The notes under the pieces were generated by a model. The model was not told the DNA's origin, did not search any database, and saw only the letters and a list, made by a program, of their open reading frames with translations. Positions 3,754-36,749 of a stretch of 40,460 bases of DNA are shown in pieces; position 1 is the stretch's first letter, and the number at the start of each line of letters is the position of its first letter. The translations under genes and the position numbers were made by a program. This stretch comes from Saccoglossus kowalevskii (taxonomy: Eukaryota > Hemichordata > Enteropneusta > Harrimaniidae): assembly GCF_000003605.2 (NCBI RefSeq), contig NW_003134155.1, forward strand, positions 1-40,460, read 5' to 3'.

Positions 3754-3770
3754 GTTTTCTGGTTACCACT

Positions 3771-12550: not shown

Positions 12551-13957
12551 TGTGTTTGAAGTAAGGTTTTCTGGTTACCACCCATGGCTGTGTTTGGAGT
12601 GAGATTTGCTGGTTACCACTCATGGGTGTGTTTGAAGTAAGGTTTTCTGGTTACCACTCATGGCTGTGTTTGAAGTGAGGTTTCTGGTTACCACCCATGG
12701 CTGTATTTGAAGTAAGGTTTTCTGGTTACCACTCATGGCTGTGTTTGAAGTAAGGTGTTCTGGTTACCACTCATGGCTGTGTTTGAAGTGAGGTTGTCTG
12801 GTTACCACCCATGGCTGTATTTGATGTAAGGTTTTCTGGTTACCGCTCATGGCTGTATTTGAAGTGATGTTTTCTGGTTACCACCCATGGCTGTATTTGA
12901 AGTAAGGTTTTCTGGTTTCCACTCTGGCTGTATTTAAAGTGAATTTTGCTGGTTGCCACCCATGGCTGTGTTTGAAGTGAGGTTTTCTGATTACCACCCA
13001 TGGCTGTGTTTGAAGTGAGGTTTTCTGGTTAGCACCCATGGCTGTATTTGAAGTAAGGATTTATGGTTACCACCCATGGCTGTGCTTGGAGTGCGATTTG
13101 CTGGTTACCACTCATAGCTGTATTTGAAGTGAGGTTTGCTGGTTACCAATCATGGCTGTATTTGAAGTTAGGTTTGCTGGTTACCACCCTTGGCTGTGTT
13201 TGAAGTGAGATTTGCTGGTTACCACCCATAGCTGTATTTGAAGTGAGGTTTGCTGGTTACCACCCATGGCTGTATTTGCAGTGAGGTTTGCTGGTTACCA
13301 TCCATGGCTATGTTTGGAGTGAGGTTTGCTGGTTACCACCCATGGCTGTGTTTGAAGTGAGGATTTCTGGTTACCACCCATGGCTGTATTTGACGTCAGG
13401 TTTGCTGGTTACCACCCATGGCTGTTTTTGAAGTGAGGTTTGCTGGTTACAACCCATGGCTGTGTTTGGAGTGAGGTTTGCTGGTTACCACTCATGGCTG
13501 TATTTGGAGTGAGGTTTGCTGGTTACCACTCATGGCTGTATTTGGAGTGAGGTTTTCTGGTTACCACCCATGGCTGTGTTTGAAGTGAGGTTTTCTGGTT
13601 ACCACCCATGGCTGTATTTGAAGTAAGGTTTTCTGGTTACCACTCATGGCTGTGTTTGAAGTAAGGTGTTCTGGTTACCACTCATGGCTGTGTTTGAAGT
13701 GAGGTTTTCTGGTTAACACCCATGGCTGTATTGAAGTAAGGTTTTCTGGTTACCACTCATGGCTGTATTTAAAGTGAGGTTTGCTGGTTGCCACCCATGG
13801 CTGTGTTTGAAGTGAGGTTTGCTGGTTACCACCCATGGCTGTGTTTGAAGTGAGGTTTTCTGGTTACCACTCATGGCTGTATTTGAAGTAAGGTTTTCTG
13901 GTTACCACCCATGGCTGTGTTTGGAGTTCGATTTGCTGGTTACCACTCATTGGTGTT
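12551..13957. repeat. Satellite mosaic holding blocks J and K
   Basis: Block J (about 12790-13100) contains a monomer three bases short (ACTCTGGCTG, 12921) and the AAGGATTTATGG plus GTGCTTGGAG pair. It matches 31630-31940 at an offset of 18,839 bp, including the three-base loss at 31760. Block K (about 13240-13570) contains TTTGCAGTG, TTTGACGTCAGG (13390) and TTACAACCC, and matches 34666-35000 at an offset of 21,426 bp. The rest is ordinary satellite, with monomers one base short near 12680 and 13732. Confidence 0.8.
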
Positions 13958-14540
13958 TTTGAAGTAAGGTTTTCTGTTTACCACTCATGGCTGTGTTTGA
14001 AGTGAGGTTTGCTGGTTACCACTCATGGCTGTGTTTGAAGTGAGGTTTGCTGGGGACCACCCATGGCTGTATTTGAAGTGAGGTTTGCTGGTTACCACCC
14101 ATGGCTGTGTTTGGAGTGCGGTTTGCTGGTTACTACTCATGGCTGTGTTTCAAGTAAGGTGTTCTGGTTACCACTCATGGCTGTGTTTGGAGTGCGATTT
14201 GCTGGTTACCACTCATGGGTGTTTTTGAAGTAAGGTTTTCTGGTTACCACTCATGGCTGTGTTTGAAGTGAGGTTTTCTGGTTACCACCCATGGCTGTAT
14301 TTGAAGTCAGGTTTTCTGTTTACCACTCATGGCTGTGTTTGAAGTGAGGTTTGCTGGTTACCACCCATGGCTGTGTTTGAAGTGAGGTTTGCTGGGGACC
14401 ACCCATGGCTGTATTTGAAGTGAGGTTTGCTGGTTACCACCCATGGCTGTGTTTGGAGTGCGGTTTGCTGGTTACTACTCATGGCTGTGTTTCAAGTAAG
14501 GTGTTCTGGTTACCACTCATGGCTGTGTTTGAAGTGAGGT
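13955..14540. repeat. 342-bp (9-monomer) local duplication
   Basis: The series from about 13955 to 14190 recurs at about 14297-14536, an offset of exactly 342 bp or nine monomers. Both copies carry GGGGACC (about 14053 and 14395) followed two monomers later by the rare GGAGTGCGG variant (about 14113 and 14455), then TTACTACTC and TTTCAAGTAAGG. The rare GTGCGG monomer makes the match specific rather than generic. Confidence 0.8.
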
Positions 14541-14649
14541 TGTCTGGTTACCACCCATGGCTGTATTTGAAGTAAGGTTTTCTGGTTACCGCTCATGGCT
14601 GTATTTGAAGTGAGGTTTTCTGGTTACCACCCATGGCTGTATTTGAAAT

Positions 14650-15880
14650 AAAGTTTTCTGGTTACCACTCATGGCTGTAATTAAAGTGAGGTTTGCTGGT
14701 TGCCACCCATGGCTGTGTTTGAAGTGAGGTTTTCTGGTTACCACCCATGGCTGTGTTTGAAGTAAGGTTTTCTGGTTACCACCCATGGCTGTGTTTGGAG
14801 TGAGATTTGCTGGTTACCACTCATGGGTGTGTTTGAAGTAAGGTTTTCTCGTTACCACTCATGGCTATGTTTGAAGTGAGGTTTTCTGGGCACCACCCTT
14901 GGCTGTATTTGAAGTGAGATTTGCTGGTTACCACTCATGGCTGTATTTGGAGTGAGGTTGTCTGGTTACCACCCATGGCTGTGTTTGGAGTGAGGTTTGC
15001 TGGTTATCACCCATGGCTGTATTTGAAGTGAGGTTTGCCGGTTACCACTCATGGCTGTATTTGAAGTGTGGTTTGCTGGTTACCACTCATGGCTGTGTTT
15101 GAAGTGAGGTTTGCTGGTTACCACTCATGGCTGTATTTGAAGTGAGGTTTGCTGGTTACCACTCATGGCTGTATTTGAGTTGAGGTTTGCTGGTTACCAC
15201 TCATGGCTGTATTTGAAGTGAGATTTGCTGGTTACCACTCATGGCTGTATTTGAAGTCAGGTTTGCTGGTTACCACTCATGGCTGTAATTAAAGTGAGGT
15301 TTGCTGGTTACCACCCATGGCTGTGTTTGAAGTGAGGTTTTCTGGTTACCACCCATGGCTGTGTTTGAAGTAAGGTTTTCTGGTTACCACCCATGGCTGT
15401 GTTTGGAGTGAGATTTGCTGGTTACCACTCATGGGTGTGTTTGAAGTAAGGTTTTCTCGTTACCACTCATGGCTGTGTTTGAAGTGAGGTTTTCTGGTTA
15501 CCACCCTTGGCTGTATTTGAAGTGAGATTTGCTGGTTACCACTCATGGCTGTATTTGGAGTGAGGTTGTCTGGTTACCACCCATGGCTGTGTTTGGAGTG
15601 AGGTTTGCTGGTTATCACCCATGGCTGTATTTGAAGTGAGGTTTGCCGGTTACCACTCATGGCTGTATTTGAAGTGTGGTTTGCTGGTTACCACTCATGG
15701 CTGTGTTTGAAGTGAGGTTTGCTGGTTAACACTCATGGCTGTATTTGAAGTGAGGTTTGCCGGTTACCACTCATGGCTGTATTTGAATTGAGATTTGCTG
15801 GTTACCACTCATGGCTGTATTTGAAGTGAGGTTTGCTGGTTACCACCCATGGCTGTGTTTGGAGTGAGGTTTGCAGGTTA
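14650..15880. repeat. 608-bp (16-monomer) tandem duplication
   Basis: Position 14821 onwards repeats at 15429 onwards, an offset of 608 bp or 16 monomers. Both copies have the rare TTTTCTCGTTACC monomer (about 14845 and 15453), CACCCTTGG (about 14893 and 15501), GGTTATCACCC (about 15002 and 15610), GTTTGCCGG and GAAGTGTGG (about 15063 and 15671). Similarity fades after about 15700. The first copy has a CTGGGCACCACCC variant that the second lacks. A monomer with AATTAAAG marks the start of both copies. Confidence 0.85.
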
Positions 15881-15971
15881 CCACTCATGGCTGTATTTGA
15901 AGTAAGGTTTCCTGGTTACCACTCATGGCTGTATTTGAAGTAAGGTTTTCTGGTTACCGCTCATGGCTGTA

Positions 15972-17563
15972 TTTGAAGTGAGGTTTTCTGGTTACCACCC
16001 ATGGCTGTGTTTGAAGTGAGGTTTGCTGGTTACCAATCATGGCTGTATTTGAAGTGAGGTTTTCTGGTTACCACTCATGGCTGTGTTTGAAGTGAGGTTT
16101 TCTGGTTACCACCCATGGCTGTATTTGAAGTAAGGTTTTCTGGTTACCACTCATGGCTGTGTTTGGAGTGAGGTTTGCTGGTTACCACCCATGGCTGTGT
16201 TTGAAGTGAGGTTTTCTGGTTACTACTCATGGCTGTATTTGAAGTGAGGTTTGCTGGTTACCACTCATGGCTGTGTTTGAAGTGAGGTTTGCTGGTTACC
16301 AACCATGGCTGTGTTTGAAGTGAGATTTGCTGGTTACCACCCATGGCTGTATTTGAAGTGAGGTTTGCTGGTTACCACTCATGGCTGTATTTGGAGTGAG
16401 GTTTGCTGGTTACCACCCATTGCTGTGTTTGGAGTGAGGTTTGCTGGTTACCACTCATGGCAGTATTTGGAGTGAGGTTTGCTGGTTACAACTCATCGCT
16501 GTAATTGGATTGAGGTTTTTTGCTTACCAACCATGGCTGTGTTTGAAGTGAGGTTTGCTGGTTACCACTCATGGCTGTGTTTGAAGTGAGGTTTGCTGGT
16601 TACCACCCATGGTTGTGTTTGAAGTGAGATTTGCTGGTTACCACACATGGCTGTATTTGAAGTGAGGTTTGCTGGTTACCACCCGTGGCTGTATTTGAAG
16701 TGAGGTTTGCTGGTTACCATCCATGGCTATGTTCGGAGTGAGGTTTGCTGGTTACCACCCATGGCTGTGTTTGAAGTGAGGTTTTCTGGTTACCACCCAT
16801 GGCTTTATTTGACGTGAGGTTTGCTGGATACCACCCATGGCTGTTTTTGAAGTGAGGTTTGCTGGTTACCACCCATGGCTGTGTTTGGAGTGAGGTTTGC
16901 TGGTTAACACTCATGGCTGTATTTTGAGTAAGGTTTGCTGGTTACCACTCATGGCTGTATTTGGAGTGAGGTTTTCTGGTTGCCACCCATGGCTGTGTTT
17001 GAAGTGAGGTTTTCTGTTTACCACTCATGGCTGTATTTGAAGTGAGGTTTGCTGGTTGCCACCCATGGCTGTGTTTGAAGTGAGGTTTTCTGGTTACCAC
17101 CCATGGCTGTGTTTGAAATAAGGTTTTCTGGTTACCACCCATAGCTGTGTTTGGAGTGAGATTTGCTGGTTACTACTCATGGCTGTGTTTGAAGTGAGGT
17201 TTGCTGGTTACCACCCATGGCTGTGTTTGAAGTGAGGTTTGCTGGGGACCACCCATGGCTGTGTTTGGAGTGGACTGTGCTGGTTACTACTCATGGCTGT
17301 GTTTCAAGTAAGGTGTTCTGGTTACCACTCATGGCTGTGTTTGTAGTGAGGTTGTCTGGTTACCACCCATGGCTGTATTTGAAGTAAGGTTTTCTGGTTA
17401 CCGCTCATGGCTGTATTTGAAGTGAGGTTTTCTGGTTACCACCCATGGCTGTATTTGAAGTAAAGTTTTCTGGTTACCACTCATGGCTGTAATTGAAGTG
17501 AGGTTTGCTGGTTGCCACACATGGCTGTGTTTGAAGTGAGGTTTTCTGGTTACCACCCATGGC
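15972..17563. repeat. Segmental duplication C, copy C2
   Basis: This is the second C copy, about 5.0 kb to the right of C1 and in direct orientation. From about 16421 to its end it is the left half of a 1,140-bp tandem duplication. It differs from C1 in a few bases, for example GTTCGGAG (about 16732) where C1 has GTTTGGAG (about 11719), and TGGACTGTGC (about 17271) where C1 has TGGAGTGTGC. Both C2 and C3 share these differences, so they predate the tandem step. Confidence 0.92.
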
Positions 17564-18700
17564 TGTGTTTGGAGTGAGGTTTGCTGGTTACCACTCATGG
17601 CAGTATTTGGAGTGAGGTTTGCTGGTTACAACTCATCGCTGTAATTGGATTGAGGTTTTTTGCTTACCAACCATGGCTGTGTTTGAAGTGAGGTTTGCTG
17701 GTTACCACTCATGGCTGTGTTTGAAGTGAGGTTTGCTGGTTACCACCCATGGCTGTGTTTGAAGTGAGATTTGCTGGTTACCACACATGGCTGTATTTGA
17801 AGTGAGGTTTGCTGGTTACCACCCGTGGCTGTATTTGAAGTGAGGTTTGCTGGTTACCATCCATGGCTATGTTCGGAGTGAGGTTTGCTGGTTACCACCC
17901 ATGGCTGTGTTTGAAGTGAGGTTTTCTGGTTACCACCCATGGCTTTATTTGACGTGAGGTTTGCTGGATACCACCCATGGCTGTTTTTGAAGTGAGGTTT
18001 GCTGGTTACCACCCATGGCTGTGTTTGGAGTGAGGTTTGCTGGTTAACACTCATGGCTGTATTTTGAGTAAGGTTTGCTGGTTACCACTCATGGCTGTAT
18101 TTGGAGTGAGGTTTTCTGGTTGCCACCCATGGCTGTGTTTGAAGTGAGGTTTTCTGTTTACCACTCATGGCTGTATTTGAAGTGAGGTTTGCTGGTTGCC
18201 ACCCATGGCTGTGTTTGAAGTGAGGTTTTCTGGTTACCACCCATGGCTGTGTTTGAAATAAGGTTTTCTGGTTACCACCCATAGCTGTGTTTGGAGTGAG
18301 ATTTGCTGGTTACTACTCATGGCTGTGTTTGAAGTGGGGTTTGCTGGTTACCACCCATGGCTGTGTTTGAAGTGAGGTTTGCTGGGGACCACCCATGGCT
18401 GTGTTTGGAGTGGACTGTGCTGGTTACTACTCATGGCTGTGTTTCAAGTAAGGTGTTCTGGTTACCACTCATGGCTGTGTTTGTAGTGAGGTTGTCTGGT
18501 TACCACCCATGGCTGTATTTGAAGTAAGGTTTTCTGGTTACCGCTCATGGCTGTATTTGAAGTGAGGTTTTCTGGTTACCACCCATGGCTGTATTTGAAG
18601 TAAAGTTTTCTGGTTACCACTCATGGCTGTAATTGAAGTGAGGTTTGCTGGTTGCCACACATGGCTGTGTTTGAAGTGAGGTTTTCTGGTTACCACCCAT
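16421..18700. repeat. 1,140-bp (30-monomer) near-perfect tandem duplication
   Basis: Positions 16421-17560 are repeated directly at 17561-18700. Comparing line by line I found only two differences: GGTTGTG against GGCTGTG near 16613/17753, and GAAGTGAGG against GAAGTGGGG near 17196/18336. That is about 99.8% identity. The right flank of the second copy continues like C1 after 12550, whereas the first copy jumps back to the start of the duplicated unit. This fits one unequal exchange out of register by 30 monomers. It is the youngest clear rearrangement in the window by identity. Confidence 0.95.
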
Positions 18701-19149
18701 GGCTGTGTTTGAAGTAAGGTTTTCTGGTTACCACCCATGGCTGTGTTTGGAGTGAGATTTGCTGGTTACCACTCATGGGTGTGTTTGAAGTAAGGTTTTC
18801 TGGTTACCACTCATGGCTGTGTTTGAAGTGAGGTTTTCTGGTTACCACCCATGGCTGTATTTGAAGTAAGGTTTTCTGTTTACCACTCATGGCTGTGTTT
18901 GAAGTGAGGTTTGCTGGTTACCACCTATGGCTGTGTTTGAAGTGAGGTTTGCTGGGGACCACCCATGGCTGTATTTGAAGTGAGGTTTGCTGGTTACCAC
19001 CCATGGCTGTATTTGGAGTGAGGTTTGCTGGTTACCACTCATGGCTGTGTTTGAAGTGAGGTTGTCTGGTTACCACCCATGGCTGTATTTGAAGTAAGGT
19101 TTTCTGGCTACCGCTCATGGCTGTATTTGAAGTGAGGTTTTCTGGTTAC
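18701..19149. repeat. Right flank of C3, shared with the right end of the window
   Basis: From about 18540 to 19160 the series matches 36129-36749 at a constant offset of 17,589 bp. The rare variant TTCTGGCTACCGCTC occurs at about 19102 and 36691 in both. A CACCTATGG monomer and GGGGACC (about 18957) are also shared. This is one of several matches that tie 18.5-23.1 kb to 36.1-40.5 kb. No gene is present. Confidence 0.88.
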
Positions 19150-20935
19150 CACTCATGGCTGTATTTGAAGTAAGGTTTTCTGGTTACCCCTCATGGCTGT
19201 GTTTGAAGTGAGGTTTGCTGGTTACCACCTATGGCTATGTTTGAAGTGAGGTTTGCTGGGGACCACCCATGGCTGTATTTGAAGTAAAGTTTTCTGGTTA
19301 CCACTCATGGCTATAATTAAAGTGAGGTTTGCTGGTTGCCACCCATGGCTGTGTTTGAAGTGAGGTTTTCTGGTTACCACCCATTGCTGTGTTTGAAGTA
19401 AGGTTTTCTGGTTACCACCCATGGCTGTATTTGGAGTGATATTTGCTGGTTACCACTCATGGGTGTGTTTGAAGTAAGGTTTTCTGGTTACCACTCATGG
19501 CTGTGTTTGAAGTAAAGTTTTCTGGTTACCACTCATGGCTGTAATTAAAGTGAGGTTTGCTGGTTGCCACCCATGGCTGTGTTTGAAGTGAGGTTTTCTG
19601 TTTACCACCCATGGCTGTATTTGAAGTAAGGTTTTCTGGTTACCACTCATGGCTGTGTTTGAAGTGAGATTTGCTGGTTACCACTCATGGCTGTATTTGA
19701 AGTGAGGTTGTCTGGTTACCACCCATGGCTATATATTGAAGTGAGGTTTGTTGGTTACCACTCATGGCTGTGTTCGGAGTGAGATTTGCTGGTTACCACT
19801 TATGGCTGTGTTTGGAGTGAGGTTTGCTGGTTACCACCCATGGCTGTGTTTGAAGTGAGGTTTGCTGGTTACCAATCATGGCTGTATTTGAAGTTAGGTT
19901 TGCCGGTTACCACTCATGGCTGTATTTGAAGTGAGGTTTGCTGGTTACCACTCATGGTTGTGTTTGAAGTGAGGTTTGCTGGTTACCACTCATGGCTGTA
20001 TTTGAAGAGAGGTTTGCTGGTTACCACTCATGGTTGTGATTGAAGTGAGATTTGCTGGTAACTACTCATGGCTGTATTTGAAGTGAGGTTTGCTGGTTAC
20101 CACTCATGGCTGTGTTTGAAGTGAGGTTTGCTGTTTACCAACCATGGCTGTGTTTGAAGTGAGATTTGCTGGTTACCACCCATGGCTGTATTTGAAGTGA
20201 TGTTTGCTGGTTACCACTCATGGCTGTATTTGAAGTGAGGTTTACTGGTTACCACCCATGGCTGTGTTTGGAGTGAGGTTTGCTGGTTACCACTCATCGC
20301 TGTATTTGGAGTGAGGTTTTTTGGTTACCACCCATGGCTGTGTTTGAAGTGAGGTTTGCTGGTGACCACTCATGGCTGTGTTTGAAGTGAGGTTTGCTGG
20401 TTACCACCCATGGCTGTGTTTGAAGTCAGATTTGCTGGTTACCACCCATGGCTGTGTTTGAAGGGAGGTTTTCTGGTTACCACCCATGGCTGTATTTGAC
20501 GTGAGGTTTGCTGGTTACCACCAATGGCTGTTTTTGAAATGAGGTTTGCTGGTTACCACTCATGGTTGTGTTTGGAGTGAGGTTTGCTGGTTACCACTCA
20601 TGGCTGTATTTGGAGTGAGGTTTGCTGGTTACCACTCATGGCTGTATTTGGAGTGAGGTTTTCTGGTTACCACCCATGGTTGTGTTTGGAGTGAGATTTG
20701 CTGGTTACCACTCATGGGTGTGTTTGAAGTAAGGTTTTCTGGTTACCACCCATGGCTGTATTTGAAATAAGGTTTTCTGGTTACCACTCATGGCTGTGTT
20801 TGAAGTAAGGTGTTCTGGTTACCACTCATGGCTGTGTTTACAGTGAGGTTTTCTGGTTACCACCCGTGGCTGTATTTGAAGTGACGTTTCCTGGTTACCA
20901 CTCATGGCTGTATTTAAAGTGAAATTTGCTGGTTG
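19150..20935. repeat. Satellite blocks D and E, copy 2
   Basis: Positions 19150-20204 match 23252-24306 at a constant offset of 4,102 bp. Positions 19740-20930 match 38120-39315 at an offset of 18,385 bp, and 19222-20880 matches the left end of the window. Markers in order are TTACCCCTC (19185), CTATAATTAAAG, CCATTGCTG (19382), ATATATTG (19732), GTTCGGAG, CACTTATGG (19797), GTGATTGAAG (20036), ATCGCTG (20287), GAAGGGAGG (20459), CACCAATGG (20519) and GTTTACAGTG (20836). It is the best-preserved reference copy for this block. Confidence 0.92.
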
Positions 20936-22207
20936 CCACCCATGGCTGTATTTGAAGTAAGGTTTCTGGTTACCACTCATGGCTGTGTTTGAAGTAAGGT
21001 GTTCTGGTTATCACTCATGGCTGTGTTTGAAGTGAGGTTGTCTGGTTACCATCCATGGCTGTATTTGAAGTAAGGTTTTCTGGTTACCACTCATGGCTGT
21101 GTTTGGAGTGAGGTTTGCTGGTTACCACCCATGGTTGTATTTGAAGTGAGATTTTCTGGTTACCACCCATGCCTGTGTTTGAAGTGAGGTTTGCTGGTTA
21201 CCACTCATGGCTGTATTTGAAGTAAGGTTTGCCGGTTACCACTCATGGCTGTATTTGAAGTGAGGTGTGCTGGTTACCACTCATGGCTGTGTTTGAAGTG
21301 AGGTTTGCTGGTTACCACTCATGGCTGTATTTGAAGTAAGGTTTGCCGGTTACCACTCATAGCTGTATTTGAAGTGAGGTTTGCTGGTTACCACTCATGG
21401 CTGTATTTGAAGTGAGGTTTGCTGGTTACCCCATGGCTGTGTTTGGAGTGAGGTTTGCTGGTTACCACTCATGGCTGTATTTGAAGTAAGGTTTTCTGGT
21501 TACCACTCATGGCTGTGTTTGACGTTAGGTTTGCTGGTTACCACCCATGGCTGTGTTTGAAGTGAGATTTACTGGTTACCACCCATGGCTGTATTTGAAG
21601 TGATGTTTGCTGGATACCACCCATGGCTGTATTTGATGTGAGGTTTGCTGGTTACCACCCATGGCTGTGTTTGGTGTGAGGTTTGCTGGTTACCACTCAT
21701 GGCTGTGTTTCAAGTAAGGTGTTCTGGTTACCACTCATGGTTGTGTTTGAAGTTAGGTTGTCTGGTTAACACCCATGGCTATATTTGAAGTAAGGTTTTC
21801 TGGTTACCGCACATGGCTGTATTTGAAGTGAGGTTTTCTGCTTAAAACCCATGGCTGTATATTGAAGTGAGGTTTGTTGGTTACCACTCATGGCTGTGTT
21901 TGAAGTAAGGAATTCTGGTTACCACTCATGGCTGTGTTTGAAGTGAGGTTGTCTGGTTACCACCCATGGCTGTATTTGAAGTAAGGTTTTCTGGTTACCG
22001 CTCATGGCTGTATTTGAAGTGAGGTTTTCTGGTTACCACTCATGGCTGTATTTGAAGTAAGGTTTTCTGGGTATCAAACATGGCTGTATTTAAAGTGAGG
22101 TTTGCTGGTTGCCACCCATGGCTGTGTTTGAAGTGAGGTTTTCTGGTTAACACCCATGGCTGTGTTTGAAGTGAGGTTTTCTGGTTATCACCCATGGCTG
22201 TATTGAA
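20936..22207. repeat. Unassigned satellite mosaic with F- and G-type variants
   Basis: This stretch lies where the right-end copy has only about 270 bp (39316-39582), so it was either deleted there or inserted here. It has F/G-type markers: AAGGTTTCTGG one base short (20961), CCCATGCCTGTG (about 21167), GAGATTTACTGG (about 21565), CTGGATACC and TTTGGTGTGAGG (about 21671), and GTTAACACCC with a TATATTTG monomer. One monomer is two bases short (GGTTACCCCATGG, about 21424). An AAGGAATTCTGG variant at about 21907 carries the GAATTC hexamer. Only satellite is seen. Confidence 0.78.
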
Positions 22208-23100
22208 GTGAGGTTTGCTGGTTACCACTCATGGGTGTGTTTGAAGTAAGGTTTTCTGGTTACCACCCATGGCTGTATTGAAAGTAAGGTTTTCTGGTTA
22301 CCACTCATGGCTGTGTTTGAAGTAAGCTGTTCTGGTTACCACTCATGGCTGTGTTTGAAGTGAGGTTTTCTGGTTAACACCCATGGCTGTATTTGAAGTA
22401 AGGTTTTCTGGTTACCACTCATGGCTGTATTTAATGTGAGGTTTGCTGGTTGCCACCCATGGTTGTGTTTGAATTGAGGTTTGCTGGTTACCACCCATGG
22501 CTGTGTTTGAAGTGAGGTTTTCTGGATACCACTCATGGCTGTATTTGAAGTAAGGTTTTCTGGTTACCACCCATGGCTGTGTTTGGAGTGCGATTTGCTG
22601 GTTACCACTCATTGGTGTTTTTGAAGTAAGGTTTTCTGTTTACCACTCATGGCTGTGTTTGAAGTGAGGTTTGCTGGTTACCACCCATGGCTGTGTTAGA
22701 AGTGAGGTATGCTGGGGACCACCCATGGCTGTGTTTGGAGTGAGGTTTGCTGGTTACCACTCATCGCTGTATTTGGAGTTATGTTTTTTGGTTACCACCC
22801 ATGGCTGTGTTTGAAGTGAGGTTTGCTGGTTACCACTCATGGCTGTGTTTGAAGTGAGATTTGCTGGTTACCACCCATGGCTGTGTTTGAAGTGAGATTT
22901 GCTGGTTACCACCCATGGCTGTGTTTGAAGTGAGGTTTTTTGGTTACCACCCATGGCTGTATTTGACGTGAGGTTTGCTGGTTACCACCCATGGCTGTTT
23001 TTGAAGTGAGGTTTGCTGGTTACCACCCATGGTTGTGTTTGGAGTGAGGTTTGCTGGTTACCACTCATGGCTGTATTTGGAGTGAGGTTTGCTGGTTACC
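22208..23100. repeat. Segmental duplication H, copy 1
   Basis: H1 matches H2 (39570-40460) at a constant offset of 17,362 bp with about five differences. Shared rare variants are GTATTGAAAGTAAGG (about 22275), AAGTAAGCTGTTC (about 22321), GTTAACACCC, TTTAATGTGAGG (about 22431), CTGGATACCACTC (about 22524), CTCATTGGTG (about 22609), GTTAGAAGTGAGGTATGC (about 22695) and GGAGTTATG (about 22775). The ordered run of rare monomers makes the relationship certain. Confidence 0.93.
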
Positions 23101-24306
23101 ACTCATGGGTGTGTTTGAAGTAAGGTTTTCTGGTTACCACTCATGGCTGTATTTGAAATAAGGTTTTCTGGTTACCACTCATGGCTGTGTTTGAAGTAAG
23201 GTGTTCTGGTTACCACTCATGGCTGTGTTTACAGTGAGGTTTTCTGGTTACCACCCATGGCTGTATTTGAAGTAAGGTTTTCTGGTTACCCCTCATGGCT
23301 GTGTTTGAAGTGAGGTTTGCTGGTTACCACCTATGGCTATGTTTGAAGTGAGGTTTGCTGGGGACCACCCATGGCTGTATTTGAAGTAAAGTTTTCTGGT
23401 TACCACTCATGGCTATAATTAAAGTGAGGTTTGCTGGTTGCCACCCATGGCTGTGTTTGAAGTGAGGTTTTCTGGTTACCACCCATTGCTGTGTTTGAAG
23501 TAAGGTTTTCTGGTTACCACCCATGGCTGTATTTGGAGTGATATTTGCTGGTTACCACTCATGGGTGTGTTTGAAGTAAGGTTTTCTGGTTACCACTCAT
23601 GGCTGTGTTTGAAGTAAAGTTTTCTGGTTACCACTCATGGCTGTAATTAAAGTGAGGTTTGCTGGTTGCCACCCATGGCTGTGTTTGAAGTGAGGTTTTC
23701 TGTTTACCACCCATGGCTGTATTTGAAGTAAGGTTTTCTCGTTACCACTCATGGCTGTGTTTGAAGTGAGATTTGCTGGTTACCACTCATGGCTGTATTT
23801 GAAGTGAGGTTGTCTGGTTACCACCCATGGCTATATATTGAAGTGAGGTTTGTTGGTTACCACTCATGGCTGTGTTCGGAGTGAGATTTGCTGGTTACCA
23901 CTTATGGCTGTGTTTGGAGTGAGGTTTGCTGGTTACCACCCATGGCTGTGTTTGAAGTGAGGTTTGTTGGTTACCAATCATGGCTGTATTTGAAGTTAGG
24001 TTTGCCGGTTACCATTCATGGTTGTATTTGAAGTGAGGTTTGGTGGTTTCCACTCATGGTTGTGTTTGAAGTGAGGTTTGTTGGTTACCACTCATGGTTG
24101 TATTTGAAGAGAGGTTTGGTGGTTACCACTCATGGTTGTGATTGAAGTGAGATTTGTTGGTAATTACTCATGGATGTATTTGAAGTGAGGTTTGTTGGTT
24201 ACCATTCATGGCTGTGTTTGAAGTGAGGTTTGCTGTTTACCAACCATGGCTGTGTTTGAAGTGAGATTTGCTGGTTACCACCCATGGCTGTATTTGAAGT
24301 GATGTT
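23091..24306. repeat. Satellite blocks D and E, copy 3
   Basis: From 23252 this copy follows 19150-20204 at an offset of 4,102 bp. From 23256 to 23966 I found one difference in 711 bp (GTTTTCTCG at 23740). Then come 13 substitutions in 23967-24205, and none in the last 100 bp to 24305. The series stops matching near 24306. Upstream, 23091-23736 also matches 1480-2125. Only satellite is present. Confidence 0.93.
23967..24205 (+). other. Strand-biased substitution cluster inside one satellite copy
   Basis: Compared with 19865-20103, and with two further copies near 787-1030 and 38247-38486, this stretch has C to T at 23967, 24015, 24022, 24081, 24098, 24157, 24164, 24195 and 24205, C to G at 24043 and 24119, C to A at 24174, and A to T at 24049. 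The three other copies keep the unmutated base at all these positions, so the changes are derived here. Twelve of 13 fall on + strand C, a base making up only about a fifth of the monomer. Six lie in the TGCT context of the GTTTGCTGG end. The cause could be deamination of exposed single-stranded DNA or a local sequence-quality fault. Confidence 0.85.
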
Positions 24307-24409
24307 TTCTGGTTACCACTCATGTCTGTATTGGAAGTGAGGTTTTCTGGTTACCACCCATGGCTGTATTTGAAGTAAGGTTTTCTGTTTACCACTCATG
24401 GCTGTGTTT
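24307..24409. repeat. Satellite junction between E copy 3 and F1
   Basis: Fewer than three monomers join the two blocks. They include CTCATGTCTGTATTGGAAG (about 24320), a combination I did not see elsewhere. The array stays continuous and in the same orientation. Confidence 0.65.
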
Positions 24410-25740
24410 GAAGTGAGGTTTGCTGGTTACTACCTATGGCTGTGTTTGAAGTGAGGTTTGCTGGGGACCACCCATGGCTGTATTTGAAGTGAGGTTTGCT
24501 GGCTACCACCCATGGCTGTGTTTGGAGTGAGGTTTTCTGGCTACCACTCATGGCTGTGTTTGAAGTGAGGTTGTCTGGTTACCACCCATGGCTGTATTTG
24601 AAGTAAGGTTTTCTGGTTACCGCTCATGGCTGTATTTGAAGTGAGGTTTTCTGGTTACCACTCATGGCTGTGTTTGAAGTGAGGTTTGCTGGTTACCACT
24701 CATGGCTGTATTTGAAGTGAGGTTTGCCGGTTACCACTCATGGCTGTATTTGAAGTGAGGTTTGCTGGTTACCACTCATGGCTGTATTTGAAGGGAGGTT
24801 TGCTGGTTACCATACATGGCTGTGTTTGGAGTGAGGTTTGCTGGTTACCACTCATGGCTGTATTTGAAGTAAGGTTTTCTGGTTACCACTCATGGCTGTG
24901 TTTGAAGTTAGGTTTGCTGGTTACCACCCATGGCTGTGTTTGAAGTGAGATTTACTGGTTACCACCCATGGCTGTATTTGAAGTGAGGTTTGCTGGATAC
25001 CACCCATGGCTGTATTTGAAGTGAGGTTTGCTGGTTACCACCCATGGCTGTGTTTGGTGTGAGGTTTGCTGGTTACCACTCATGGCTGTGTTTCAAGTAA
25101 GGTGTTCTGGTTATCACTCATGGCTGTGTTTGAAATTAGGTTTTCTGGTTACCACTCATGGCTGTGTTTGAAGTGAGTTTTTCTGGTTACCACTCATGGC
25201 TGTATTTGGAGTGAGGTTGTCTGGTTACTACCCATGGCTGTATTTGAAGTGATGTTTGTTGGTTACCACTCATGGCTGTGTTTGAAGTGAAATTTGCTGG
25301 TTACCACCCATGGCTGTATTTGAAGTAAGGTTTCTGGTTACCACTCATGGCTGTGTTTGAAGTAAGGTGTTCTGGATATCACTCATGGCTGTGTTTGAAG
25401 TGAGGTTGTCTGGTTACCACCCATGGCTGTATTTGAAGTAAGGTTTTCTGGTTACCGCTCATGGCTGTATTTGAAGTGAGGTTTTCTGGTTACCACCCAT
25501 GGCTGTATTTGAAGTAAGGTTTTCTGGTTACCACTCATGGCTGTATTTAAAGTGAGGTTTGCTGGTTGCCACCCATGGCTGTATTTGAAGTGACGTTTGT
25601 TGGTTACCACTCATGGCTGTGTTTGAAGTGAGATTTGCTGGTTACCACTCATGGCTGTGTTTGGAGTGAGGTTTGCTGGTTACCACCCATGGCTGTATTT
25701 GAAGTGAGATTTTCTGGTTACCACCCATGCCTGTGTTTGA
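24410..25740. repeat. Segmental duplication F, copy F1
   Basis: F1 matches F2 at an offset of 1,329 bp, which is 35 monomers less one base, and the two copies abut. Markers are GGGGACC (24471), GAAGGGAGG (24791), CATACATGG (24812), GAGATTTACTGG (24948), CTGGATACC (24993), TTTGGTGTGAGG (25052), TTGAAATTAGG (25130), GTGAGTTTTTC (25171), AAGGTTTCTGG one base short (25327) and CCATGCCTG (25727). The + strand reading frame at 24740-24943 exists only because GAAGGGAGG removes the usual stop. It is not a gene. Confidence 0.88.
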
Positions 25741-27320
25741 AGTGAGGTTTTCTGGTTACCACCTATGGCTGTGTTTGAAGTGAGGTTTGCTGGGGACCAC
25801 CCATGGCTGTATTTGAAGTGAGGTTTGCTGGTTACCACCCATGGCTGTGTTTGGAGTGAGGTTTTCTGGTTACCACTCATGGTTGTGTTTGAAGTGAGGT
25901 TGTCTGGTTACCACCCATGGCTGTATTTGAAGTAAGGTTTTCTGGTTACCGCTCTTGGCTGTATTTGAAGTGAGGTTTTCTGGTTACCACTCATGGCTGT
26001 GTTTGAAGTGAGGTTTGCTGGTTACCACTCATGGCTGTATTTGAAGTGAGGTTTGCTGGTTACCACTCATGGCTGTATTTGAAGTGAGGTTTGCTGGTTA
26101 CCGCTCATGGCTGTATTTGAAGGGAGGTTTGCAGGTTACCATACATGGCTGTGATTGGAGTGAGGTTTGCTGGTTACCACTCATGGCTGTATTTGAAGTA
26201 AGGTTTTCTGGTTACCACTCATGGCTGTGTTTGAAGTTAGGTTTGCTGGTTACCACCCATGGCTGTGTTTGAAGTGAGATTTACTGGTTACCACCCATGG
26301 CTGTATTTGAAGTGCGGTTTGCTGGATACCACCCATGGCTGTATTTGAAGTGAGGTTTGCTGGTTACCACCCATGGCTGTGTTTGGTGTGAGGTTTGCTG
26401 GTTACCACTCATGGCTGTGTTTCAAGTAAGGTGTTCTGGTTACCACTCATGGCTGTGTTTGAAATTAGGTTTTCTGGTTACCACTCATGGCTGTGTTTGA
26501 AGTGAGTTTTTCTGGTTACCACTCATGGCTGTATTTGGAGTGAGGTTGTCTGGTTACCACCCATGGCTGTATTTGAAGTGACGTTTGTTGGTTACCACTC
26601 ATGGCTGTTTTTGAAGTGAAATTTGCTGGTTACCACCCATGGCTGTATTTGAAGTAAGGTTTCTGGTTACCACTCATGGCTGTGTTTGAAGTAAGGTGTT
26701 CTGGTTATCACTCATGGCTGTGTTTGAAGTGAGGTTGTCTGGTTACCACCCACGGCTGTATTTGAAGTAAGGTTTTCTGGTTACCGCTCATGGCTGTATT
26801 TGAAGTGAGGTTTTCTGGTTACCACCCATGGCTGTATTTGAAGTAAGGTTTTCTGGTTACCACTCATGGCTGTATTTAAAGTGAGGTTTGCTGGTTGCCA
26901 CCCATGGCTGTATTTGAAGTGACGTTTGTTGGTTACCACTCATGGCTGTGTTTGAAGTGAGATTTGCTGGTTACCACTCATGGCTGTGTTCGGAGTGAGG
27001 TTTGCTGGTTACCACCCATGGCTGTATTTGAAATGAGATTTTCTGGTTACCACCCATGCCTGTGTTTGAAGTGACGTTTGCTGGTTACCACTCATGGCTG
27101 TATTTGAAGTGAGGTTCGCCGGTTACCACTCATGGCTGTATTTGAAGTGAGGTTTGCTGGTTACCACTCATGGCTGTGTTTGAAGTGAGGTTTGCTGGTT
27201 ACCACTCATGGCTGTATTTGAAGTAAGGTTAGCCGGTTACTACTCATGGCTGTATTTGAAGTGAGGTTTGCTGGTTACCACTCATGGCTGTATTTGAAGT
27301 GAGGTTTGCTGGTTACCATC
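25741..27320. repeat. Segmental duplication F, copy F2
   Basis: F2 is tandem to F1 and also matches F3 (27563-29143) at an offset of 1,823 bp, or 48 monomers less one base. F2 and F3 share variants that F1 lacks, such as TTACCGCTCATGG followed by GAAGGGAGG (about 26099), GTGACGTTTG (about 26578), TTTTTGAAGTGAAATTTG (about 26608), TTGAAATGAG (about 27029) and GAGGTTCGCCGG (about 27112). F2 and F3 are therefore closer to each other than to F1 by position of shared changes. Confidence 0.88.
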
Positions 27321-27562
27321 CATGGCTGTGTTTGAAGTGAGGTTTTCTGGTTACCACCCATGGCTGTATTTGAAGTAAGGTTTTCTGGTTACCACCCATG
27401 GCTGTGCTTGGAGTGCGAGTTGCTGGTTACCACACATGGGTGTGTTTGAAGTAAGGTTTTCTGGTTACCACTCATGGCTGTGTTGGAAGTGAGGTTTTCT
27501 GGTTACCACCCATGGCTGTATTTGAAGTAAGGTTTTCTGTTTACCACTCATGGCTGTGTTTG
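27321..27562. repeat. Satellite insert between F2 and F3
   Basis: About six monomers separate the F2 and F3 copies. They contain GTGCTTGGAGTGCGAG (about 27410), CACACATGGG (about 27430) and GTTGGAAG (about 27482). The GTGCTTGG plus TGCGA combination is typical of the A, B and J blocks, so this looks like a patch from another part of the array. Nothing but satellite is present. Confidence 0.72.
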
Positions 27563-29143
27563 AAGTGAGGTTTGCTGGTTACCACCTATGGCTGTGTTTG
27601 AAGTGAGGTTTGCTGGGGACCACCCATGGCTGTATTTGAAGTGAGGTTTGCTGGTTACCACCCATGGCTGTGTTTGGAGTGAGGTTTTCTGGTTACCACT
27701 CATGGTTGTGTTTGAAGTGAGGTTGTCTGGTTACCACCCAAGGCTGTATTTGAAGTAAGGTTTTCTGGTTACCGCTCATGGCTGTATTTGAAGTGAGGTT
27801 TTCAGGTTACCACTCATGGCTGTGTTTGAAGTGAGGTTTGCTGGTTACCACTCATGGCTGTATTTGAAGTGAGGTTTGCCGGTTACCACTCATGGCTGTA
27901 TTTGAAGTGAGGTTTGCTGGTTACCGCTCATGGCTGTATTTGAAGGGAGGTTTGCTGGTTACCATACATGGCTGTGTTTGGAGTGAGGTTTGCTGGTTAC
28001 CACTCATGGCTGTATTTGAAGTAAGGTTTTCTGGTTACCACTCATGGCTGTGTTTGAAGTTAGGTTTGCTGGTTACCACCCATGGCTGTGTTTGAAGTGA
28101 GATTTACTGGTTACCACCCATGGCTGTATTTGAAGTGAGGTTTGCTGGATACCACCCATGGCTGTATTTGAAGTGAGGTTTGCTGGTTACCACCCATGGC
28201 TGTGTTTGGTGTGAGGTTTGCTGGTTACCACTCATGGCTGTGTTTCAAGTAAGGTGTTCTGGTTACCACTCATGGCTGTGTTTGAAATTAGGTTTTCTGG
28301 TTACCACTCATGGCTGTGTTTGAAGTGAGTTTTTCTGGTTACCACTCATGGCTGTATTTGGAGTGAGGTTGTCTGGTTACCACCCATGGCTGTATTTGAA
28401 GTGACGTTTGTTGGTTACCACTCATGGCTGTTTTTGAAGTGAAATTTGCTGGTTACCACCCATGGCTGTATTTGAAGTAAGGTTTCTGGTTACCACTCAT
28501 GGCTGTGTTTGAAGTAAGGTGTTCTGGTTATCACTCATGGCTGTGTTTCAAGTGAGATTGTCTGGTTACCACCCATGGCTGTATTTGAAGTAAGGTTTTC
28601 TGGTTACCGCTCATGGCTGTATTTGAAGTGAGGTTTTCTGGTTACCACCCATGGCTGTATTTGAAGTAAGGTTTTCTGGTTACCACACATGGCTGTATTT
28701 AAAGTGAGGTTTGCTGGTTGCCACCCATGGCTGTATTTGAAGTAACGTTTGTTGATTACCACTCATGGCTGTGTTTGAAGTGAGATTTGCTGGTTACCAC
28801 TCATGGCTGTGTTTGGAGTGAGGTTTGCTGGTTACCACCCATGGCTGTATTTGAAATGAGATTTTCTGGTTACCACCCATGCCTGTGTTTGAAGTGAGGT
28901 TTGCTGGTTACCACTCATGGCTGTATTTGAAGTGAGGTTCGCCGGTTACCACTCATGGCTGTATTTGAAGTGAGGTTTGCTGGTTACCACTCATGGCTGT
29001 GTTTGAAGTGAGGTTTGCTGGTTACCACTCATGGCTGTATTTGAAGTAAGGTTTGCCGGTTACCACTCATGGCTGTATTTGAAGTGAGGTTTGCTGGTTA
29101 CCACTCATGGCTGTATTTGAAGTGAGGTTTGCTGGTTACCATC
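27563..29143. repeat. Segmental duplication F, copy F3
   Basis: F3 is the third F copy. It has the same order of markers: GGGGACC (27615), GAAGGGAGG (27943), CATACATGG (27964), GAGATTTACTGG (28099), CTGGATACC (28145), TTTGGTGTGAGG (28205), AAGGTTTCTGG (28480), CCATGCCTG (28879) and GAGGTTCGCCGG (28932). Only a few substitutions separate it from F2, for example CACACATGG at about 28683 where F2 has CACTCATGG, and TTCAAGTGAGATTG near 28547. Confidence 0.88.
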
Positions 29144-31600
29144 CATGGCTGTGTTTGGAGTGAGGTTTGCTGGTTACCACTCATGGCTGTATTTGAAGTG
29201 AGGTTTTCTGGTTACCACTCATGGCTGTGTTGACGTTAGGTTTGCTGGTTACCACCCATGGCTGTGTTTGAAGTGAGATTTACTGGTTACCACCCATGGC
29301 TGTATTTGAAGTGATGTTTGCTGGATACCACCTATGGCTGTATTTGAAGTGAGGTTTGCTGATTACCACCCATGGCTGTGTTTGGTGTGAGGTTTGCTGG
29401 TTACCACTCATGGCTGTGTTTCAAGTAAGGTGTTCTGGTTACCACTCATGGCTGTGTTTGAAGTTAGGTTGTCTGGTTAACACCCATGGCTATATTTGAA
29501 GTAAGGTTTTCTGGTTACCACTCATGGCTGTGTTTGAAGTTAGGTTTGCTGGTTACCACCCATGGCTGTGTTTGAAGTGAGATTTACTGGTTACCACCCA
29601 TGGCTGTATTTGAAGTGAGGTTTGCTGGATACAACCCATGGCTGTATTTGAAGTGAGGTTTGCTGGTTACCACCCATGGCTGTGTTTGGTGTGAGGTTTG
29701 CTGGTTACCACTCATGGCTGTGTTTCAAGTAAGGTGTTCTGGTTACCACTCATGGCTGTGTTTGAAGTTAGGTTTTCTGGTTACCACTCATGGCTGTGTT
29801 TGAAGTGAGTTTTTCTGGTTACCACCCATGGCTATATTTGAAGTGAGATTTGCTGGTTACCACTCATGGCTGTATTTGGAGTGAGGTTGTCTGGTTACCA
29901 CCCATGGCTGTATTTGAAGTGACGTTTGTTGGTTACCACTCATGGCTGTGTTTGAAGTGAGATTTGCTGGTTACCACTCATGGCTGTGTTTGGAGTGAGG
30001 TTTGCTGGTTACCACCCATGGTTGTATTTGAAGTGAGAATTTCTGGTTACCAGCCATGCCTGTGTTTGAAGTGAGGTTTGCTGGTTACCACTCATGGCTG
30101 TATTTGAAGTAAGGTTTGCCGGTTACCACTCATGGCTGTATTTGAAGTGAGGTTTGCTGGTTACCACTCATGGCTGTGTTTGAAGTGAGCTTTGCTGGTT
30201 ACCACTCATGGCTGTATTTGAAGTGAGGTTTGCCGGTTACCACTCATTGCTGTATTTGTAGTGAGGTTTGCTGGTTACCACTCATGGCTGTGTTTGAAGT
30301 GAGGTTTGCTGGTTACCACTCATGGCTGTATTTGAAGTAAGGTTTGCCGGTTACCACTCATGGCTGTATTTGAAGTGAGGTTTGCTGGTTACCACTCATG
30401 GCTGTATTTGAAGTGAGGTTTGCTGGTTACCATCCATGGCTGTGTTTGGAGTGAGGTTTGCTGGTTACCACTCATGGCTGTATTTGAAGTAAGGTTTTCT
30501 GGTTACCACTCATGGCTGTGTTTGACGTTAGGTTTGCTGGTTACCACCCATGGCTGTGTTTGAAGTGAGATTTACTGTTTACCACCCATGGCTGTATTTG
30601 AAGTGAGGTTTGCTGGTTACCACTCATGGCTGTATTTGAAGTGAGGTTTGCTGGTTACCCCTTGGCTGTGTTTGGAGTGAGGTTTGCTGGTTACCACTCA
30701 TGGCTGTATTTGAAGTAAGGTTTTCTGGTTGCCACTCATGGCTGTGTTTGACGTTAGGTTTGCTGGTTACCACCCATGGCTGTGTTTGAAGTGAGATTTA
30801 CTGGTTACCACCCATGGCTGTATTTGAGGTGATGTTTGCTGGATACCACCCATGGCTGTATTTGAAGTGAGGTTTGCTGGTTACCACCCATGGCTGTGTT
30901 TGGTGTGAGGTTTGCTGGTTACCACTCATGGCTGTGTTTCAAGAAAGGTGTTCTGGTTACCACTCATGGCTGTGTTTGAAGTTAGGTTGTCTTGTTAACA
31001 CCCATGGCTATATTTGAAGTAAGGTTTTCTGGTTACCACTCATGGCTGTGTTTGAAGTTAGGTTTGCTGGTTACCACCCATGGCTGTGTTTGAAGTGAGA
31101 TTTACTGGTTACCACCCATGGCTGTATTTGAAGTAAGGTTTTCTGGATACCACCCATGGCTGTATTTGAAGTGAGGTTTGCTGGTTACCACCCATGGCTG
31201 TGTTTGGTGTGAGGTTTGCTGGTTACCACTCATGGCTGTGTTTCAAGTAAGGTGTTCTGGTTACCACTCATGGCTGTGTTTGAAGTTAGGTTGTCTGGTT
31301 ACCACCCATGGCTGTGTTTGAAGTAAGGTTTACTGGTTACCACTCATGGCTGTATTTGAAGTAAGGTTTTCTGGTTACCACCCATGGCTGTGTTTGAAGT
31401 TAGGTTTTCTGGTTACCACTCATGGCTGTGTTTGAAGTGAGTTTTTCTGGTTACCACCCATGGCTATATTTGAAGTGAGATTTGCTGGTTACCACTCATG
31501 GCTGTATTTGGAGTGAGGTTGTCTGGTTACCACCCATGGCTGTATTTGAAGTGACGTTTGTTGGTTACCACTCATGGCTGTGTTTGAAGTGAGATTTGCT
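29144..31600. repeat. G-type satellite mosaic
   Basis: This stretch is built from repeated use of one short ordered cassette: GAGATTTACTGG, then CTGGATACC, then TTTGGTGTGAGG, then TTTCAAGTAAGG. The cassette starts at about 29275, 29580, 30790 and 31097. Positions 29240-29530 and 30750-31040 share GTGATGTTTGCTGGATACC and GTTAACACCC with a TATATTTG monomer, at about 1.5 kb. One monomer is two bases short (GGTTACCCCTTGG, about 30653). Other parts resemble F (CCATGCCTG at 30055). No gene is present. Confidence 0.82.
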
Positions 31601-31847
31601 GGTTACCACTCATGGCTGTATTTGGAGTGAGGTTGTCTGGTTACCACCCATGGCTGTATTGATGTAAGGTTTTTTGGTTACCGCTCATGGCTGTATTTGA
31701 AGTGATGTTTTTCTGGTTACCACCCATGGCTGTATTTGAAGTAAGGTTTTCTGGTTACCACTCTGGCTGTATTTAAAATGAGGTTTGCTGGTAGCCACCC
31801 ATGGCTGTGTTTGAAGTGAAGTTTTCTGATTACCACCCATGGCTGTG
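31601..31847. repeat. Satellite segment with block J, copy 2
   Basis: This part carries the second copy of block J (about 31630-31940, against 12790-13100). The shared three-base loss ACTCTGGCTG (31760) is specific to the pair. The copy also has private length changes: GTATTGATG one base short (about 31667) and GATGTTTTTCTGG one base long (about 31704). Only satellite is visible. Confidence 0.82.
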
Positions 31848-33291
31848 TTTGAAGTGAGGTTTTCTGGTTACCACCCATGGCTGTATTTGAAGTAAGGATT
31901 TATGGTTACCACCCTTGGCTGTGCTTGGAGTGCGATTTGCTGGTTACCACTCATGGGTGTTTTTGAAGTAAGGTTTTCTGGTTACCACTCATGGCTGTGT
32001 TTGAAGTGAGGTTTTCTGGTTACCACCCATGGCTGTATTTGAAGTAAGGTTTTCTGTTTATCAACAATGGGTGTGTTTGAAGTGAGGTTTGCTGGGGACC
32101 ACCCATGGCTGTATTTGAAGTGAGGTTTGCTGGTTACCACCCATGGCTGTGTTTCAAGTAAGGGGTTCTGGTTACCACTCATGGCTGTGTTTGAAGTGAG
32201 ATTGTCTGGTTACCACCCATGGCTGTATTTGAAGTAAGGTTTTCTGTTTACCACTCATGGCACTGTTTGAAGTGAGGTTTGCTGGTTACCACCTATGGCT
32301 GTGTTTGAAGTGAGGTTTGCTGGGGACCACCCATGGCTGTGTTTGGAGTGAGGTTTGCTGGTTACTACTCATGGCTGTGTTTCAAGTAAGGTGTTCTGGT
32401 TACCACTCATGGCTGTGTTTGAAGTGAGGTTGTCTGGTTACCACCCATGGCTGTGTTTGAAGTGAGGTTTTCTGGTTACCACCCATGGCTGTATTTGAAG
32501 TAAGGTTTTCTGGTTACCACTCATGGCTGTGTTTGAAGTAAGGCGTTCTGGTTACCACTCATGGCTGTGTTTGAAGTGAGGTTTTCTGGTTACCACCCAT
32601 GGCTGTATTTGAAGTAAGGATTTATGGTTACCACCCTTGGCTGTGCTTGGAGTGCGATTTGCTGGTTACCACTCATGGGTGTTTTTGAAGTAAGGTTTTC
32701 TGGTTACCACTCATGGCTGTGTTTGAAGTGAGGTTTTCTGGTTACCACCCATGGCTGTATTTGAAGTAAGGTTTTCTGTTTACCAACAATGGCTGTGTTT
32801 GAAGTGAGGTTTGCTGGGGACCACCCATGGCTGTATTTGAAGTGAGGTTTGCTGGTTACCACCCATGGCTGTGTTTCAAGTAAGGGGTTCTGGTTACCAC
32901 TCATGGCTGTGTTTGAAGTGAGATTGTCTGGTTACCACCCATGGCTGTATTTGAAGTAAGGTTTTCTGTTTACCACTCATGGCACTGTTTGAAGTGAGGT
33001 TTGCTGGTTACCACCTATGGCTGTGTTTGAAGTGAGGTTTGCTGGGGACCACCCATGGCTGTGTTTGGAGTGAGGTTTGCTGGTTACTACTCATGGCTGT
33101 GTTTCAAGTAAGGTGTTCTGGTTACCACTCATGGCTGTGTTTGAAGTGAGGTTGTCTGGTTACCACCCATGGCTGTGTTTGAAGTGAGGTTTTCTGGTTA
33201 CCACCCATGGCTGTATTTGAAGTAAGGTTTTCTGGTTACCACTCATGGCTGTGTTTGAAGTAAGGTGTTCTGGTTACCACTCATGGCTGTG
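31848..33291. repeat. 722-bp (19-monomer) tandem duplication
   Basis: Positions 31848-32569 recur directly at 32570-33291, an offset of exactly 722 bp. Both copies carry AAGGATTTATGG (about 31894 and 32616), CACCCTTGGCTGTGCTTGG, a CAACAATGG monomer (about 32062 and 32784), AAGGGGTTCTGG (32160 and 32882) and the unusual CATGGCACTGTTTG (about 32258 and 32980). I found only about three or four differences, for instance TATCAACAATGGG against TACCAACAATGGC. This is a recent unequal exchange. Confidence 0.93.
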
Positions 33292-33779
33292 TTTGAAGTG
33301 AGGTTGTCTGGTTACCACCCATGGCTGTATTTGCAGTAAGGTTTTCTGGTTACCGCTCATGGCTGTAATTGAAGTGAGGTTTTCTGGTTACCACCCATGG
33401 TTGTATTTGAAGTAAGGTTTTCTAGTTACCACTCATGGGTGTGTTTGAAGCAAGGTTTACTGGTTACCACTCATGGCTGTGTTTGAAGTGAGGTTTTCTC
33501 CTTACCACCTATGGCTGTGTTTGAAGTGAGGTTTGCTGGTTACCACCCATGGCTGTGATTAAAGTGAGGTTTGCTGGTTGCCACCTATGGCTGTGTTTGA
33601 AGTGAGGTTTTCTGGTTACCACCCATGACTGTCTTTGAAGTAAGGTTTTCTGGTTACCACTCATGGCTGTATATTGAAGTGAGGTTTTCTGGTTACCACC
33701 CATGGCTGTGTTTGAAGTGAGGTTTGCTGGTTACCAATCATGGCTGTATTTGAAGTAAGGTTTTCTGGTTACCACTCAT
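33292..33779. repeat. Unassigned satellite mosaic
   Basis: About 13 ordinary and variant monomers. They include TTTGCAGTAAGG (about 33331), TTTTCTCCTTACC (about 33495), CCATGACTGTC (about 33627) and TATATTGAAG (about 33670). The reverse-strand frame at 33509-33703 is broken satellite, not a gene. No long ordered match was found. Confidence 0.7.
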
Positions 33780-36128: not shown

Positions 36129-36749
36129 ACCACCCATGGCTGTATTTGAAGTGAGGTTTTCTGGTTACCACCCATGGCTGTATTTGAAGTAAAGTTTTCT
36201 GGTTACCACTCATGGCTGTAATTGAAGTGAGGTTTGCTGGTTGCCACACATGGCTGTGTTTGAAGTGAGGTTTTCTGGTTACCACCCATGGCTGTGTTTG
36301 AAGTAAGGTTTTCTGGTTACCACCCATGGCTGTGTTTGGAGTGAGATTTGCTGGTTACCACTCATGGGTGTGTTTGAAGTAAGGTTTTCTGGTTACCACT
36401 CATGGCTGTGTTTGAAGTGAGGTTTTCTGGTTACCACCCATGGCTGTATTTGAAGTAAGGTTTTCTGTTTACCACTCATGGCTGTGTTTGAAGTGAGGTT
36501 TGCTGGTTACCACCTATGGCTGTGTTTGAAGTGAGGTTTGCTGGGGACCACCCATGGCTGTATTTGAAGTGAGGTTTGCTGGTTACCACCCATGGCTGTA
36601 TTTGGAGTGAGGTTTGCTGGTTACCACTCATGGCTGTGTTTGAAGTGAGGTTGTCTGGTTACCACCCATGGCTGTATTTGAAGTAAGGTTTTCTGGCTAC
36701 CGCTCATGGCTGTATTTGAAGTGAGGTTTTCTGGTTACCACTCATGGCT
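36129..36749. repeat. Copy of 18540-19160 at the right end
   Basis: The match is at a constant offset of 17,589 bp and includes GGTTGCCACACATGG (about 36240 and 18651), a CACCTATGG monomer, GGGGACC (36543) and TTCTGGCTACCGC (about 36691 and 19102). It is the left part of the rearranged copy of 18.5-23.1 kb. Confidence 0.88.

Follow-up and report, generated by a model that had tools for sequence, protein, structure and literature searches.

One block of a 38-bp satellite array was found to carry 13 base changes within 239 bp, twelve of them at cytosines of the + strand. They are derived changes, private to this one copy. We lean towards the explanation that cytosine-directed damage hit the + strand of the block in a single burst while it was exposed as single-stranded DNA, which would make the cluster a kataegis-like mutation shower. 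The window, that is, the whole stretch of DNA that was analysed, is 40,460 nucleotides long and comprises the entire contig C2585 (C2585:1-40460). The array, the two blocks and the cluster are located as follows:

1..40460, + strand, 38-bp tandem repeat array (Tandem Repeats Finder, unit parsing, place in the assembly)
23256..24307, + strand, block bearing the cluster, a copy of 19154-20205 at offset 4102 (14 differences in 1,052 bp)
19154..20205, + strand, unmutated sister block (gapless comparison with 23256-24307)
23967..24205, + strand, mutation cluster with 13 changes, 12 at + strand C and one A to T (sister comparison; derived state from five other copies)

Tandem Repeats Finder and unit parsing showed that the 38-bp satellite extends throughout the window, in about 1,065 units with 88% matches. 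The assembly in which it was searched for consists of 4,830 contigs (572 Mb). A second array of the same repeat makes up contig C125 (22,943 bases, in reverse orientation), and the order of blocks in C125 (1-22943) differs from that in C2585. Of the 107 occurrences of the exact 32-base unit core in the 572 Mb, 62 lie on C2585 and 45 on C125, which leaves none for a third contig. Together, the two contigs gave about 1,670 parsed units in 63.4 kb of array. A search of Rfam returned no match. When the mutated tract was used in a DNA search, only the end of C2585 came back; common words are skipped by this search, which leaves it little power here.

Copied blocks, which in the window measure 0.5-1.8 kb each, make up the array like a patchwork. 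Very recent block duplications were observed at 18546-19162 and 36135-36751 (0 differences in 617 bp), at 3771-4598 and 6771-7598 (1 difference in 828 bp), and at 16422-17571 and 17562-18711 (2 differences in 1,150 bp). Such near-identical pairs, with 0-2 differences, show a fast turnover of the array by block copying.

The block bearing the cluster aligns with its sister without gaps over 1,052 bp, and the two differ at 14 positions. One difference, a private base, lies at 23740, and the other 13 lie within 23967-24205, at positions 23967, 24015, 24022, 24043, 24049, 24081, 24098, 24119, 24157, 24164, 24174, 24195, and 24205. The density is 13 changes per 239 bp in the cluster versus 1 per 813 bp in the remaining block. 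Both the counts and the spectrum given in the original prediction were reproduced: the 711 bp that precede 23967 contain 1 difference, the 239 bp of the cluster 13 and the 102 bp after it (24206-24307) none, and the changes from the sister to the focal copy are 9 C to T, 2 C to G, 1 C to A, and 1 A to T. Cytosines of the + strand thus account for 12 of the 13 changes and guanines for none, despite the 68 G versus 37 C in the 239 bases of the sister tract. Twelve of these 37 cytosines were altered. In two respects by which kataegis-like clusters are recognized, namely changes at the same base of the same strand and a density far above the local background, the tract behaves as such a cluster.

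When 14 changes were placed at random, 13 fell within 239 bp in 0 of 200,000 trials, and the probability that at least 12 of 13 changes hit C, given 15.5% C, is 2e-9; both values were computed on a tract chosen by eye, and a count of lost cytosines across the whole array is a fairer test. In that count, 16 cytosines are lost relative to the unit consensus in the seven units of the tract, 12 of them new and 4 already lost in the sister. Seven units lose at most 6 cytosines anywhere else in the window, and likewise at most 6 in C125; when the order of the units was shuffled 20,000 times, 16 was reached in 0 cases. Further clusters were also looked for, as had been suggested together with the original prediction, and no second case was found in the window or in C125. 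In the window, 65 pairwise block matches of at least 500 bp were scanned, as was the density at which C or G had been lost; for C125 the density scan alone was used, and small clusters would escape both approaches. The other dense patches among the 65 pairwise matches have mixed spectra, as inspected by eye without a test for each row. The only other C-dominated row (offset 23170) is the cluster tract again, aligned against another copy. A cytosine-only cluster was therefore found once in 63.4 kb of array on two contigs.

The direction of the changes was read from further copies of the region 23900-24260, three of which are listed here:

730..1090, + strand, unmutated copy (old base at 13 of 13 sites)
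33965..34325, + strand, unmutated, more distant copy (old base at 13 of 13 sites)
38183..38543, + strand, unmutated copy, identical to 19798-20158 across 361 bp (old base at 13 of 13 sites)

The old base is present at all 13 sites in the four other copies in the window (starting at 730, 19798, 33965, and 38183) and in a sixth copy of the block, located on C125. The original prediction had named three unmutated copies; the unmutated base is indeed kept, and the count rises to four in the window plus one on C125. With the old base present at every site in five other copies, the changes are derived and private to one copy. Two of the variants are also private at the level of units. Of 1,065 window units, 2 have G at unit column 5 and 1 has A at unit column 22; on C125 the counts are 0 of 602 and 0 of 604 units, respectively. 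All three cases lie in the tract. At every position other than the 13 sites, the tract agrees with the sister block, private bases included. Microconversion from known units was rejected, since the tract equals the sister outside the 13 sites and carries two variants seen in no other parsed unit. The changes are derived in one copy with five others ancestral, and they would have arisen on one molecule in a single event.

Within the tract, the affected cytosines share a context. Those followed by T were mutated in 12 of 17 cases and all others in 0 of 20 (p = 3e-6, a value that is pseudo-replicated, like all p-values over cytosines of this tract). By four-base context, the hits are TGCT 6/6, GGCT 3/4, CACT 2/5, AACT 1/1, and TACT 0/1; CTG was mutated in 9 of 10 cases. 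Besides TACT, the spared contexts include TACC (0/6), TGCC (0/1), TC (0/6), C before C (0/7), and CpG (0/1). UV damage at dipyrimidines does not fit the sparing of TC and of C before C, and CpG decay was rejected as the one CpG is unchanged. Each unit repeats the same contexts, and the context counts therefore rest on a few unit columns, in which the mutated fractions are 6/7 (column 5), 3/4 (column 22), 2/6 (column 15), 1/7 (column 12), 0/6 (columns 13 and 17 each), and 0/1 (column 6).

The + strand of the sister was folded with DNA parameters. The mean predicted probability of being unpaired was 0.51 for cytosines mutated in the focal copy versus 0.18 for spared ones, in a comparison where accessibility, context, and unit column are confounded. 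The two most mutated columns, 5 and 22, were the two least paired in 5 of 5 folding windows, and within column 22 the single spared site was predicted to be the most paired of the four. Within columns 12 and 15, in contrast, predicted pairing does not separate mutated from spared sites. Position 24164 was mutated despite a predicted probability of being unpaired of only 0.03-0.06, and column 17 was predicted to be paired almost as column 15, yet it was hit in 0 of 6 rather than 2 of 6 cases. Owing to the periodicity of the array, each context goes with a unit position and largely with the pairing predicted for the single strand, so that an effect of motif cannot be separated from one of accessibility. 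The predicted folding fits an attack on a folded single strand, which it does not prove, and mostly follows the unit columns; we take it only as a hint.

On its right-hand side, the block ends at a junction with another copied block:

24304..24332, no strand, right-hand junction of the block, where matching at offset 4102 gives way to matching at offset -3152 (block alignments)

The end of the cluster lies 99-127 bp from this junction, with the C-coordinated cluster on the 5' side. In yeast expressing APOBEC3A, bidirectional resection is described as leaving mutated C 5' of a break and mutated G 3' of it (PMC6786661). The position of a C-coordinated cluster 5' of the junction matches the side and strand expected for a resected 3' end. 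No G-coordinated cluster was found 3' of the junction, where the comparison of 24333-25745 at offset -3152 gave 18 mixed differences, one of them at G. Bidirectional resection was dropped for this reason, and a one-sided version remains. With copied blocks of 0.5-1.8 kb, every position has some junction within a short distance and nearness by chance is not rare, so that the support is modest; we see about an even chance that cluster and junction are causally linked. Two further private changes were noted in this region, G to T at 24325, just inside the junction zone, and C to T at 24431, beyond it; at both, the base is shared with none of seven compared block alignments.

According to the explanation that we favour, the + strand of one block would have become single-stranded, most likely as a 3' end resected from a break at the right-hand junction (24304-24332) during rearrangement or copying of the array. 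A single cytosine-directed burst may then have damaged the exposed strand, mainly at C followed by T at mostly unpaired unit positions. Bypass of the damaged or excised bases would have fixed C to T, C to G, and C to A together; such a mixture is expected when uracil or abasic sites are bypassed.

As the original prediction had already cautioned, the tract may instead be a local fault of consensus or base calling, which we consider possible but rather unlikely. One poor or damaged read, or a strand-specific fault of the caller, would have stayed unpolished because reads from repeats map ambiguously, and contigs consisting wholly of repeats are presumably hard to polish. The last 142 bp of C125 in the window orientation (C125rc 22802-22943) hold five unit-length irregularities, denser than in the interior, and raw-read-like sequence thus seems to be present at one contig end of this assembly. 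Between 23838 and 25333, however, there are zero unit-length irregularities; noisy reads err mostly through indels. Column 5 is C in 95.5% of the 1,065 window units, so that a systematic fault of the caller would need to have passed over almost every other unit. A damaged library is disfavoured by the C to G and C to A changes that stand beside C to T, since deaminated library DNA gives C to T only. Strand-specific miscalling of telomeric tandem repeats is documented for nanopore callers and was not seen in HiFi reads (PMC9414165). The likeness to those errors lies in strand-specific substitution within tandem repeats, whereas here a single tract among about 1,670 units is affected, no unit-length irregularity is present, and C is replaced by three different bases.

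An AID/APOBEC-type deaminase acting on the array in the germ line with a WRCY preference appears improbable. The original prediction had read the cluster as the mark of a cytidine deaminase or other damage on exposed single-stranded DNA and had pointed to the AID-type preference. Of this, it is supported that the changes are strand-coordinated, cytosine-directed, derived, private, and confined to one tract. Its statements on contexts (six sites in TGCT, one in AACT, none in TC) are literally correct; the preference itself was not supported, as cytosines in WRC were mutated in 7 of 15 cases versus 5 of 22 for the others (Fisher p = 0.16). The enrichment falls short of significance because TACC, TACT, and TGCC were spared while GGCT and CACT were mutated. 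The complete mutation of TGCT and AACT sites and the mixture of C to T with C to G would suit such an enzyme, and the excess of G over C on the + strand of the tract would favour R-loops, but TACC and TACT together gave 0 of 7. The APOBEC3-type preference for TC was likewise absent from the six TC sites of the tract, which sets the cluster, with its GCT/ACT contexts, apart from APOBEC3A/B. A profile search of the genome for APOBEC_N (PF08210) gave 0 matches, and it matched 0 of 14 control genomes as well, so that this result is no sign of absence; AID/APOBEC-like enzymes do occur in invertebrates, according to one report (PMC5956068). The label of AID is not earned by this cluster.

We consider it quite improbable that the tract was made elsewhere and copied in by conversion from an unassembled donor array with the same variants. 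The patchwork structure of C2585 would accommodate such a transfer, and satellite arrays are usually under-assembled. A donor would, however, have to match the sister at every base outside the 13 sites, private bases included, and to supply two variants that no other parsed unit of either contig carries, and the exact 32-base core lies on no third contig of the 572 Mb assembly. Moreover, a donor would shift the need for a cytosine-only burst and not abolish it.

Deamination or miscalling of methylated CHG cytosines is very improbable: CTG, the context mutated in 9 of 10 cases, is a CHG site, but CHG sites are symmetric and zero G of the tract changed, 5mC deamination does not yield C to G or C to A, and the genome is animal-like, CHG methylation being, to our knowledge, not general in animals. 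The animal-like character follows from the presence of homeodomains, for which a profile search of the genome listed at least 95 places (150 of 209 candidates scored; control genomes silent), together with the absence of a match to the chlorophyll-binding family in a profile search of the genome whose control worked (one control genome matched). Profile searches for the cuticle family and for MHC class I gave zero matches as well, though their control genomes also stayed silent.

For the damage burst that we favour, the kind of event is already known and its place is unusual. Kataegis and mutation showers from damaged single-stranded DNA in yeast and tumours, as described in one report (PMC6786661), resemble the cluster in being tight and confined to a single base on a single strand, and perhaps also in lying close to a rearrangement junction with C-coordinated changes on its 5' side; here, the cluster is a single 239-bp case in assembled satellite DNA without a known mutator, and its context is GCT/ACT. 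In a complete human pancreatic cancer genome, somatic clusters (kataegis) are enriched in satellites (PMC13174521). Those clusters are somatic, from a human tumour, and backed by reads, and neither a cytosine-strand nor a GCT pattern is given in the available part of that work (PMC13174521). The same paper reports 481 false omikli and kataegis events that arose from germline-somatic interactions, which is a warning for a satellite cluster such as the present one (PMC13174521). Oxidative damage to single-stranded DNA in yeast has cytosine as its main target and gives mostly C to T, as does our cluster, but at a low reported cluster density (PMC3799438), whereas 12 of 37 cytosines are hit here. 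In the limited literature searched, and to the extent that its sources were available, no single-copy C-only satellite cluster outside tumours was met, which does not prove that none has been published.

The known system of AID somatic hypermutation and switch-region targeting shares with the tract a tandem repeat whose + strand is richer in G than in C, hits at TGCT sites, and C to T together with C to G. It differs in that, here, WRC is not significantly preferred, GGCT and CACT are mutated, and TAC is spared.

The novelty would lie in a cluster with a GCT/ACT pattern that is inherited and comes from an unstudied animal; inheritance is an assumption. A broader proposal, which we regard as speculative and unlikely to hold, is that, during their rearrangement, the satellite arrays of this animal go through extended single-stranded stages, and that a cytosine agent preferring GCT/ACT, an uncharacterised deaminase or a damage process, produces heritable kataegis in the germ line once uracil excision and translesion bypass have followed. 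If real, the tract would cleanly document a cytosine shower that arose in one event within a tandem array; five unmutated copies would serve as built-in controls, and a junction adjoins it. Such arrays could then be used to gauge the exposure of single-stranded DNA and the mutational signature in satellite turnover beyond yeast and humans. If it is an artefact, it would show that a satellite consensus can carry strand-biased patches of substitutions that resemble biology.

A separate observation concerns the relation between the two array contigs. Two near-identical homeodomain ORFs, which we take to be Barx-like, were found on separate contigs, C1367 and C3684, and they may represent haplotypes that the assembly did not collapse. 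In that case, C125 might correspond to the second allele of a part of the C2585 array.
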